From the IMG/VR virus record IMGVR_UViG_3300025652_000398, positions 1-27,985 of that record: DNA of 27,985 bases. One strand, given 5' to 3'. The position numbers and the translations under genes are program-made. Each line of letters begins with the position of its first letter. Position 1 is the stretch's first letter. Below the pieces are notes generated by a model. That model had not been told where the DNA came from. It saw nothing but the letters and a program-made list of their open reading frames with translations, and searched no databases. This document shows, in pieces, positions 3,037 through 27,348 of this stretch. The stretch comes from a virus.

Positions 3037-4227
3037 TTATAACAGAAGAAGGTTACGCGTGCGCTCCGACTTCATGTTAAAACCAATAGCCATGACGGCC
3101 GAATGTGACTTGTATCCGCCCGAGGCGTGCTGATCACGCACAGTCAAGGCTGGCATCTGCATCCAGTAAATGCCCGGAAACTCGTCTGCTTTGATGTGAT
3201 GAAGGTGGCCGGTCATAACGATGCGGTAGCGCGTGCGGCCCCAAACGTCTGGAAACTCGGCCGCGCAGAACATCGCCAGATCCTTTGGCGTGCGCTTGTC
3301 GCCGTGATGAATGAAGATAGCCACCTCGCCATGTTCAACGACAGAAAATTCAGATGAGCCCGGCGCCTCGAAGTTCATGTAGATTTTGACGCGCGGATTG
3401 TCACGGTAGCGATAATGAAGACCGATCAGAATGGTCTCCCAGTTCTGCGGATCGTGATTGCCCGGAACCGAGTAATATTCAACCACCTCATGCTTGACCA
3501 AGGCCATCTCGATGCAGGATGATATGACGCTGATTGCCTCGAAGACGGTGAAGTAATTGCGACCATCTACGTCGAGCTGGTGATTTGACCGGCGTGTAAC
3601 ATTGCGGTCGTCGGTCTGGTGCGTAAAGTCACCACCGTTGATAATGACGCCGCGGTAGGCATTCGGTGCGCCGGCCATAACAGAAGACATTGCCGCCTTG
3701 ATACGATTACTGCCGATCTCGAGGTTCATTTCCTCACCGGATGCGCCTTTATGTGCGCGCATGCCCAGATGAGCGTCAAAGAGCGGATAGACGACCATCA
3801 TTTCCGGATCTGTGATCATTGATGCGATGATCTCGGGCGCGGCTGGAACACTCTGCAATGCCTCACGCACCTGATCCAGAAACTCTTCAGGCGATCCGGC
3901 TTTCATGGGCGCCAGTTGCATCGAATATTTCTGGTCTTTGATCCACAAGGACTTCGGGATCATTTTAGAGCCGAAGTGATCCATTGCCTCGACGATCGCC
4001 GGATCAACTGTGTCTCTTTCCACATATGCGGTGTAGCGGTCTATCAGAGCCGGAACATTCTCACCTGCACGCAGGCGGTTTCGCATAATGGCCGCGTAAT
4101 TGGTTACGGTCTTGGAAGACCTTTTCAGCTCTCTCGCCACGTCTTCCAAAAACGGATAGGTCTTTATGTCGTTGTAGATTTCCGCGAACCGGATGTGCTT
4201 ATCTTTGGTTGATTCAGAACCGTTCAT
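3037..4227 (-). CDS. Calcineurin-like metallophosphoesterase with HTH-like N-terminus
   Basis: Predicted two-metal phosphoesterase of 396 residues. The metal-binding motifs are all present in order: DAH at 151-153, GGD at 198-200, GNHD at 256-259, HHGD at 307-310 and GHLHH at 340-344. The N-terminal 60 residues contain a helix-turn-helix-like segment (FLEDVARELKRSSKTVTNYAAIMRNRL), suggesting DNA contact or a targeting domain fused to the enzyme. This architecture occurs in several phage proteins; the substrate (nucleic acid, nucleotide or protein phosphate) cannot be read from sequence. The start at ATG 4227 lies inside one arm of a 15-bp perfect inverted repeat, with a purine-rich AAAGAGAAAGAA ribosome-site candidate in the loop. 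It lies between the lysis cassette and phoH. Confidence 0.88.
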   Translation of the reverse strand: MNGSESTKDKHIRFAEIYNDIKTYPFLEDVARELKRSSKTVTNYAAIMRNRLRAGENVPALIDRYTAYVERDTVDPAIVEAMDHFGSKMIPKSLWIKDQKYSMQLAPMKAGSPEEFLDQVREALQSVPAAPEIIASMITDPEMMVVYPLFDAHLGMRAHKGASGEEMNLEIGSNRIKAAMSSVMAGAPNAYRGVIINGGDFTHQTDDRNVTRRSNHQLDVDGRNYFTVFEAISVISSCIEMALVKHEVVEYYSVPGNHDPQNWETILIGLHYRYRDNPRVKIYMNFEAPGSSEFSVVEHGEVAIFIHHGDKRTPKDLAMFCAAEFPDVWGRTRYRIVMTGHLHHIKADEFPGIYWMQMPALTVRDQHASGGYKSHSAVMAIGFNMKSERTRNLLLL

Positions 4228-4277
4228 CGTAAGTAGTTCTTTCTCTTTAAGGTATAGTATATCTTACGATGAACGGT
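4219..4277. repeat. 15-bp perfect inverted repeat over phosphoesterase start
   Basis: Arms ACCGTTCATCGTAAG (4219-4233) and CTTACGATGAACGGT (4263-4277) are exact reverse complements with a 29-nt AT-rich spacer. One arm contains the phosphoesterase start codon (4225-4227), and its purine-rich ribosome-site candidate lies in the spacer. The other arm ends five bases from the stop of the preceding gene. In mRNA the arms would pair and mask the AUG. The spacer also contains TATACT-like sequence on the minus strand, but no -35 partner. The structure is certain; its function is inferred. Confidence 0.75.
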
Positions 4278-4282
4278 CCGGT

Positions 4283-4720
4283 TTAATTCCAGAACGGCGT
4301 TCTTGTAAGCCAGGGTGTTGGAACAGAAAACTTACCGAAACCGATCCGGCAGCGGTGAAACACATCGGCGTAGCTTTCATGCAAAAGAACCTCCGGCGGT
4401 GCTGCCTGAACATGCCAATTCTCAAAGACATGAAATCCAGCAAAACGAACCTCTGGGGCGCCCCAGACGTAATCGACCGGCGAGTCATTGCCGCCGCGCT
4501 CACCTTTGCGCCAGCGGATATATTCCGGGTTGCAGCTGTTGCGAAGTTTGAAGAAACTACCGGAGACATAAACCCATTCACTTGAGTTTTCATCCTGCAC
4601 TGCGGTCATAAAGACTCGATCCACGACGGGAAAGTATTTCCCCTCAATGGTGCCCGGACCTATAAGCGAGATCCATCCAGCAGAAAGAACAGCAGTCCAA
4701 ATATGGAAAGCGTGTTTCAC
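4283..4720 (-). CDS. Small exported protein at end of lysis cassette
   Basis: Unrecognised protein of 145 residues starting at GTG 4720, with GAGGA as ribosome site and a 4-nt overlap (GTGA) with the stop of the holin candidate. Residues 7-25 (IWTAVLSAGWISLIGPGTI) form a hydrophobic segment after a short N-terminus, consistent with a signal peptide or single membrane anchor. The rest is hydrophilic with two cysteines (NSCNPEY and FHRCRIG) that could form a disulfide in the periplasm. Coupling to the lysis genes suggests a role in the envelope, such as lysis timing or superinfection exclusion, but this is context only. The gene looks real from its tight overlap and ribosome site. Confidence 0.7.
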   Translation of the reverse strand: MKHAFHIWTAVLSAGWISLIGPGTIEGKYFPVVDRVFMTAVQDENSSEWVYVSGSFFKLRNSCNPEYIRWRKGERGGNDSPVDYVWGAPEVRFAGFHVFENWHVQAAPPEVLLHESYADVFHRCRIGFGKFSVPTPWLTRTPFWN

Positions 4721-6346: not shown

Positions 6347-6364
6347 TAAGTAAGCAGTGACTGA
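6347..6364 (-). promoter_or_regulatory. 18-bp dyad site upstream of endolysin
   Basis: Sense strand reads TCAGTCACTGCTTACTTA, a family member (TAnGTCA-N4-TTACwTA, one mismatch). GTCA starts four bases after the -10 hexamer, so the dyad would cover the transcription start. This placement is typical of an operator, or of a phage-specific promoter extension. Confidence 0.6.
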
Positions 6365-15627: not shown

Positions 15628-15645
15628 TAAGTCACTTGTTACTTA
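15628..15645. promoter_or_regulatory. 18-bp dyad site in M-L gap
   Basis: Plus strand reads TAAGTCACTTGTTACTTA, two half-sites TAAGTCA and TTACTTA with a 4-bp spacer, the cleanest dyad of the family. Its better-matching orientation is opposite to that of the sites at 1232, 6347, 22269 and 26903. I see no -35/-10 pair beside it. Confidence 0.6.
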
Positions 15646-22268: not shown

Positions 22269-22286
22269 TATGTAAGTAATGACTTA
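22269..22286 (-). promoter_or_regulatory. 18-bp dyad site upstream of major tail gene
   Basis: Sense strand reads TAAGTCATTACTTACATA, an exact match to TAnGTCA-N4-TTACwTA. As at the endolysin, GTCA begins four bases after the -10 hexamer of the candidate promoter at 22288-22316. Confidence 0.65.
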
Positions 22287-22287
22287 T

Positions 22288-22316
22288 TAAATAGCAGATA
22301 ACTTGGCAAGTGGCAA
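22288..22316 (-). promoter_or_regulatory. Candidate promoter for major tail gene
   Basis: Sense strand has TTGCCA (22316-22311), a 17-nt spacer ending TGC, and TATTTA (22293-22288). The -10 is a poor match to consensus, but the upstream TG extends it. The major tail protein is made in large amounts, so a promoter here is plausible. The 85-nt gap 22242-22326 holds no gene. Confidence 0.45.
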
Positions 22317-26902: not shown

Positions 26903-26920
26903 TAAGTAAGGACTGACGTA
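26903..26920 (-). promoter_or_regulatory. 18-bp dyad site at start of adhesin island
   Basis: Sense strand reads TACGTCAGTCCTTACTTA, an exact match to TAnGTCA-N4-TTACwTA. It lies 11 nt before the Ig-like gene. A weak TTGAAT ... TAGGTT pair with 17-nt spacing can be drawn upstream, but I do not trust it. Confidence 0.6.
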
Positions 26921-26940: not shown

Positions 26941-27348
26941 TCATTCAAGCATTTCGACAGAGAAGACGGTGTCGAAATGCTGGCTCGCCTCAAAGTAATT
27001 GCTTTCCAGCCGCGGAAACACGATCGGAAGTGTGTCCGGGAAGAAACGATCAATGATCACCCTGCCCCTGTTGGTGTTTGCAGGGTGTATCTCGCGAACC
27101 TCGGACTGCAACAATTTCTGCACCTGGATCGCCAGTGTCTCTGTGTTAACAGCCGTATCTGCCCGACAGATGATCTGAATGCGCGTGGCGTGACGGCTGG
27201 GGATATACGGATCAATGGCGATGCCGATCAACGGCACACGCAGCTCGACGCCATATTCGATACCTGATGGCATTGTGCCGATGAAAACAGTGCGACCACC
27301 GATGAAGCCAGCCGCGGCGAGTTTCTCCACAAGAATGTCAAAGATCAT
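26941..27348 (-). CDS. Tail terminator / head-tail completion protein
   Basis: Protein of 135 residues between the gp10-like gene and the tail genes, the position of lambda U or of tail-terminator proteins. The pattern MIFDILVEKLAAAGFIGGRTVFIGTMPSGIEYGVELR, with ATRIQIICRADTAVNTETLAIQVQKLL in the middle, matches small tail-terminator/minor-capsid family proteins that form a ring at the top of the tube. ATG 27348 overlaps the previous stop (ATGA). The exact family is uncertain. Confidence 0.75.
   Translation of the reverse strand: MIFDILVEKLAAAGFIGGRTVFIGTMPSGIEYGVELRVPLIGIAIDPYIPSRHATRIQIICRADTAVNTETLAIQVQKLLQSEVREIHPANTNRGRVIIDRFFPDTLPIVFPRLESNYFEASQHFDTVFSVEMLE

Follow-up and report, generated by a model that had tools for sequence, protein, structure and literature searches.

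The inverted repeat at positions 4219-4277 of the window (27,985 bases, the complete IMG/VR record) is read here, with about even confidence and from sequence comparison, as site 2 of a dispersed phage element in which inverted recognition sites flank a promoter at operon boundaries. The element is likely to be a promoter-linked control site rather than the private switch of one enzyme gene, because its sequence turns over between phages and its arms stay complementary.

The repeat consists of two perfect 15-bp arms at 4219-4233 (ACCGTTCATCGTAAG) and 4263-4277 (CTTACGATGAACGGT), separated by a 29-nt loop, and was the sole perfect 15-bp inverted repeat within the window. The arms are exact complements, and the expectation for such a repeat with a loop of at most 100 nt was 0.003 per window by analytic calculation and 0.013 in first-order Markov simulations, which bears out the claim of the first-pass annotation that the repeat is improbable by chance. 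Read in the gene direction (minus strand), the upstream arm AACCGGACCGTTCATCGTAAG spans 4263-4283; only 4263-4277 had been recognized initially, and the full length was taken from comparison with contigs L008 and L009. The A/T-rich loop ATATACTATACCTTAAAGAGAAAGAACTA (minus strand, 4234-4262) follows, its first 18 nt matching the L009 loop bar one change. The downstream arm CTTACGATGAACGGT (minus strand, 4219-4233) holds an ATG at 4225-4227 and has TCTG instead of the outer CCGG of the consensus arm. Within the loop lie a candidate -10 box, TATACT (minus strand, 4256-4261), proposed for the window from the directional TATAAT enrichment of its relatives, and the purine-rich run AAAGAGAAAGAA (minus strand, 4237-4248), a weak ribosome-binding-site candidate judged from sequence only. 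A start codon inside one arm and a purine run inside the loop were thus both found as initially described.

The ATG opens a 396-aa ORF (minus strand, 3037-4227), which has no earlier in-frame start before a stop in the upstream arm. On the other side, the stop codon of a 145-aa ORF (minus strand, 4283-4720) abuts the upstream arm; this ORF belongs to no family and lies 3' of holin/endolysin genes. Comparison of the window element with Rfam covariance models gave sub-threshold matches only, none at the gathering score. A sigma-70 promoter scan listed no site at the element, which has a -10-like box but no -35/-10 pair at 16-18 nt spacing. An intrinsic terminator scan did not list it either; its loop is 29 nt long and no T run comes past the stem. 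A second perfect inverted repeat, with arms of 12 bp and a loop of 10 nt, was present at 26948-26981, where ORF 26941-27348 ends.

Searching viral contigs for the pair of arms also recovered L003, L008 and L009. L003 is an independent contig that covers 8.5 kb of the window at 99.67% identity with the repeat intact, so a single assembly error is not the cause. With an expectation of 0.003-0.013 and further copies in L008, L009 and more distant relatives, chance or assembly artefact was refuted as an explanation and its probability is negligible. In L008 and L009 the element is the sole DNA similarity to the window and is located between an 85-aa winged-helix ORF and a PHROG 867 HTH (terminase-type) gene. 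The palindrome there is longer than that of the window, with 21-bp perfect arms and a TATA-rich loop. The two contigs are near-identical and their loops (L009 3403-3431, L008 8798-8824) differ by one TA unit, so loop length is variable among close strains. A private leader of the phosphoesterase gene was ruled out, since the same arms were found in another gene context. Single-arm matches in 28 other viral contigs (L010-L037) lacked a partner arm and were set aside as chance matches. A 20-nt pattern searched against host genomes (genome_contigs) gave no match, and a host origin is thus unsupported.

Proteins of L008 and of the window match, at consistent distances, those of Rhizobium phages RHph_X66, V1VFA-S, B1VFA and RHEph10, and more distantly those of Pseudomonas Nickievirus phages. 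We infer a single phage type as the source of the window, L003 and L008/L009. Gene order in the relatives runs ParB, ParB, ABC-type proteins, small winged-helix protein, HTH protein, TerL, portal, capsid and tail, followed after the tail by J, lysis, PhoH, a PHROG-2500-type protein and DnaB; repC is present in X66, B1VFA, N1_10 and RHEph10. By this order L008 represents the opening of the structural block, and the window represents its later part together with what follows. A homologous element was found in RHph_X66, RHEph10 and many IMG/VR phages of 105-121 kb as a palindromic signal of ∼70 bp, with arms of ∼20 bp and an A/T-rich loop of 15-61 nt. Site 1 lies before the HTH/terminase-structural block and site 2 after the lysis genes, where the gene that follows encodes an HTH-A1 protein, an HTH-phosphoesterase or PhoH; a site 3 is usual further upstream. 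The repeat in the window occupies the position of site 2. Ahead of its HTH gene, RHph_X66 carries ATTCCCGTCCATTCACTGTC - 44 nt - GACAGTGAAAGGACGGGAAT in the gap, and the downstream half recurs in the gap before PhoH. The arms of RHEph10 (TCCGGTCCGTCTCCCTTC) are quite unlike those of X66 and occur in both of its gaps and in a third place. The gene annotated past this third site (RHEph10 96170-97060, L045 46170-47060) has an odd, low-complexity-like composition and no family, and its annotated frame may be wrong.

The ABC-type protein beside site 1 was used as bait and gave 80 further loci, of which 66 were usable. About two thirds of these carried a long inverted repeat (score of at least 11.5) ∼250-480 nt past the ABC-type gene, mostly at 250-290 nt; loci with no clear repeat include the most distant ones. 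Scores were 11.5-27.5, as against about 6-11 in shuffled sequence and the neighboring coding stretch, where a few controls reached 11.5-15. Non-redundant site-1 loci with the element in the same position numbered 44, their arms being 14-30 bp long, and in most complete genomes no other A/T-loop inverted repeat was as strong as that of site 1. Two to three copies with genome-specific arms were found in each of 12 relative genomes. Both halves were present at site 1 in all 12, and elsewhere single halves occurred: the downstream half alone was clear at about nine sites (X66 sites 2 and 3, G012 site 2, G011 sites 2 and 3, G007 site 3, G019 site 2 and partly site 3, G017 site 2) and the upstream half alone at two (RHEph10 site 3, G021 site 2). 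A full hairpin is therefore not needed at every site.

Site 1 was recovered at its fixed position despite unrelated arm sequences. In the 43 site-1 elements whose arms were 17 bp or longer, the two arms of one element were 91% complementary, compared with 31% for arms swapped between elements (46% at the best shift); for 23 divergent representatives the values were 89% and 41%. Identity over the inner 11 nt of the half-sites was 0.92 within genomes and 0.48 between genomes (best of five registers). Elements had been picked as inverted repeats, and sites 2 and 3 had been located with each genome's own arm, so that part of the 0.91 and of the 0.92 is due to selection. Control scans of whole genomes with reversed patterns at equal stringency found 0-2 matches in each genome, and these were at the mismatch limit. 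Pairing of the kind first noted in the window was thus conserved in the relatives, where the arms have almost fully diverged between phages yet are still complementary. Compensatory changes were also sought in L005 and L006, which encode the closest phosphoesterases; these are of a different phage type and have no repeat, and were uninformative.

The loops of the relatives averaged 79% A+T, compared with 44% in the flanks. A perfect TATAAT near the downstream arm was present on the sense strand in 15 of 44 elements and on the antisense strand in 3 (3.5 in shuffles), and in sense-antisense comparisons of TATAAT the sense strand won 20 and lost 6. Genes past the element run in the TATAAT direction. 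No recognizable -35 box was found at the candidate -10 of the window or at the elements, and the TATACT of the window adjoins the upstream arm, not the downstream arm. Two relatives checked, X66 and RHEph10, encode a sigma-70-like factor. AAGTAAG/CTTACTT was present in 22 of 44 loops (0.2 expected) and is half of a dispersed ∼18-bp palindrome, TAAGTAAGNNCTTACTTA. Seven copies of this palindrome with at most 3 mismatches were counted in the window (0.01 expected), including 1232-1249, 2934-2951, 6347-6364, 15628-15645, 22269-22290 and 26903-26920; the copies lie 10-44 nt upstream of several start codons. A further 16 were present in the first 50 kb of RHph_X66, and the palindrome is operator- or SAS-like.

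The 396-aa product is a calcineurin-like phosphoesterase resembling DNA repair exonucleases (PHROG 704, E 5.5e-61; weak Pfam Metallophos match). Its HTH-like N-terminus had been noted at the outset and was a three-helix HTH in the structural model, with mean pLDDT >90 for residues 11-60; a structure search with the HTH model gave generic HTH folds only, none significant. The domain (residues 6-78; minus strand, 3994-4212) is common to most proteins encoded after site 2. In relatives a ∼620-aa protein is encoded directly past site 2, and its first ∼75 residues match window residues 6-78, with 42-57% identity in the better matches. In RHEph10 it belongs to PHROG 1745, DNA transfer protein, and in related records it is annotated as A1. 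At the same site the HTH is a separate 90-aa protein in G007 and heads a 375-aa protein in G017. The loci concerned are 3994-4212 in the window, 23883-25745 in L044 and 8553-8825 in L158. One HTH, fused to an A1-type DNA transfer protein or a phosphoesterase, or standing alone, directly past site 2 marks a domain-swap hotspot.

The first-pass annotation had suggested that the enzyme might control its own gene through this HTH, a suggestion that found no support. Relatives with no phosphoesterase still carry the element, and G012, G020 and G009 keep elements with no detected HTH match, the stem in G012 being a perfect 26 bp; in G012 and G020 site 2 precedes PhoH. Conversely, the phosphoesterases of L005 and L006 have an HTH-like N-terminus and no repeat. 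The HTH is therefore not the required or general recognizer, and an operator restricted to it was rejected on the same grounds, although the phosphoesterase HTH might still have a role at site 2 alone. The 85-aa winged-helix protein beside site 1 was rejected as a variable recognizer because its recognition helix is nearly constant while the arms change. The broader proposal, in which either RNA folding or a DNA-binding factor exerts the control, fits the conserved pairing as a class of idea; its restriction to the phosphoesterase fell with the finding of the same arms in L008 and L009.

In the preferred reading each element would comprise two inverted recognition sequences of ∼18-20 bp, read by one putative phage-specific trans-acting factor, and the A/T-rich stretch of 15-60 nt between them would carry a promoter firing into the downstream operon. 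Copies of the element would mark the starts of gene blocks at sites 1-3, and at site 2 the downstream arm would also encode the first codons of the next gene. Promoter activity and the factor itself are inferred here. One factor with inverted half-sites would account for complementarity, arm sharing within genomes, joint change between phages and the occurrence of single halves. Arm sharing within genomes could instead come from gene conversion. Counting against the recognition-site reading are the lean toward G.T mismatches, the missing -35, the position of the window -10 beside the upstream arm, and the constant recognition helix of the winged-helix protein.

The mismatches bear on a possible though somewhat unlikely alternative, an RNA hairpin acting as a switch in the manner of T4 genes e, soc and 49, in which the arms pair in read-through RNA and hide the start codon or translation start, and RNA started in the loop, having no upstream arm, is translated. 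In minus-strand RNA the stem of the window repeat extends to 17 pairs with the ATG inside (MFE -25.7 kcal/mol, z = -4.9), and RNA beginning within the loop (4250 downwards) had no unusual structure (z 0.02). At site 2 the window, RHEph10, G007, G011 and G027 have the start codon within the downstream arm or at its inner edge, complementarity survives extreme divergence, and the loops show a promoter signature. T4 provides a precedent for such a switch, with the late promoter placed in the 5' strand of the helix (PMC3014915). Stem mismatches on the sense strand of all elements were G.T/T.G in 27 cases and A.C/C.A in 13 (p 0.038), and G.T in 14 and A.C in 4 among the representatives (p about 0.03), a bias that is weak and drawn from mutually related loci; it weakly suggests sense-RNA pairing over pure DNA recognition. 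An RNA switch leaves unexplained that sites 1-3 of one genome share arm sequence, one arm is lost at several sites, and the site-1 start codon is usually 12-78 nt past the stem. The recognition-site and RNA hairpin models can coexist: at site 2 a transcript continuing out of the lysis genes would fold and hide the start codon, and loop-started RNA would stay open, so that silencing of read-through RNA as at T4 gene e is plausible, by analogy, as a secondary, added effect.

A role in DNA packaging, replication or recombination (a pac/cos site of the HTH/terminase protein, a lytic origin or a point of module exchange) is unlikely. Site 1 abuts the HTH gene beside the large terminase subunit in relatives, the A/T-rich core with flanking inverted sites is origin-like, and the copies bracket the structural module, but a pac site would not be expected to occur two to three times at operon boundaries or to carry a directional TATAAT. 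Less probable still is a small palindromic cassette, mobile in the manner of MITE or PeSL, that was copied within each genome and whose arms have no required function. Such a cassette would suit the genome-specific arms and the fact that window-type sites 1 and 2 have, in inverted orientation, their arms and most of the loop in common. It would not be expected to occupy the same two or three places across highly diverged phages and to have few other copies in each genome, and no target-site duplications were noticed in an unsystematic look.

No published description of the element was found in the literature searched, which is not proof of absence. The nearest known kind, by likeness of form and with no claim of homology, would be the ESAS of cluster K mycobacteriophages, which consist of two imperfect inverted repeats of ∼17 bp with a spacer of 4-13 bp, near gene starts and at several sites per genome (PMC3203893). 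The ESAS consensus differs between subclusters, its function is unproven, and the sites lie in the non-structural half beside a 13-bp SAS (PMC3203893); in K4 phages the right ESAS repeat can touch the start codon (PMC12699233). Paired inverted repeats are common to both, with arms of 14-30 bp at the 44 site-1 loci here. The present element differs in its A/T-rich spacer with TATAAT bias, which measures 29 nt in the window and 15-61 nt in the relatives, in its small number of sites (2-3 per genome, at module boundaries), and in far greater arm turnover. The SAS sequence GGGATAGGAGCCC was absent around the window repeat and from the listed elements when read by eye.

Hairpins of T4 e, soc, 49 and I-TevI have the start codon in the stem and a promoter, TATAAATA, in the 5'-side part, so that promoter-proximal RNA cannot fold (PMC3014915); arm sharing between sites is not described for T4 (PMC3014915). 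The likeness lies in the start codon within a stable RNA stem in the window and in the downstream-arm start codons at site 2 of relatives. As to a promoter in or by the 5' arm, the observations are a TATAAT bias in relatives and the candidate TATACT in the window. The stem-loop of PeSL (promoter-early stem-loop) cassettes is a terminator. These cassettes of T4-type phages, cited in PMC4503421, are promoter and stem-loop composites at gene boundaries, an arrangement resembling the present one. The element described here has its candidate promoter within the loop and lacks a terminator-like U run after the stem, and it fits neither PeSL nor an intrinsic terminator. For lambda Q, phage 21 Q and Caulobacter GafZ, recognition DNA lies within the promoter of a long structural operon, and the putative GafZ element is a palindrome with 7-bp arms between -35 and -10 (PMC6606751, PMC11150451). 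Both features recall the present element, which differs from that of GafZ in having arms of ∼20 bp around a loop.

The element flags probable transcription-unit starts in a large, poorly studied group of Rhizobium/Nickievirus-like phages, and at one of its loci a common HTH domain is found joined to different enzymes. The element couples a strongly conserved structure to almost complete turnover of sequence that is synchronous at several sites per genome, and so offers a tractable system for how a phage regulator and all its sites switch specificity together. Tentatively, and with considerable doubt, one phage-specific code may mark the promoters of the virion and neighboring blocks and be re-coded in step, leaving related phages mutually blind, with the paired arms doubling, at the RNA level, as a guard against read-through translation. 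Such mutual blindness, if true, would be a structural-gene counterpart of heteroimmunity.
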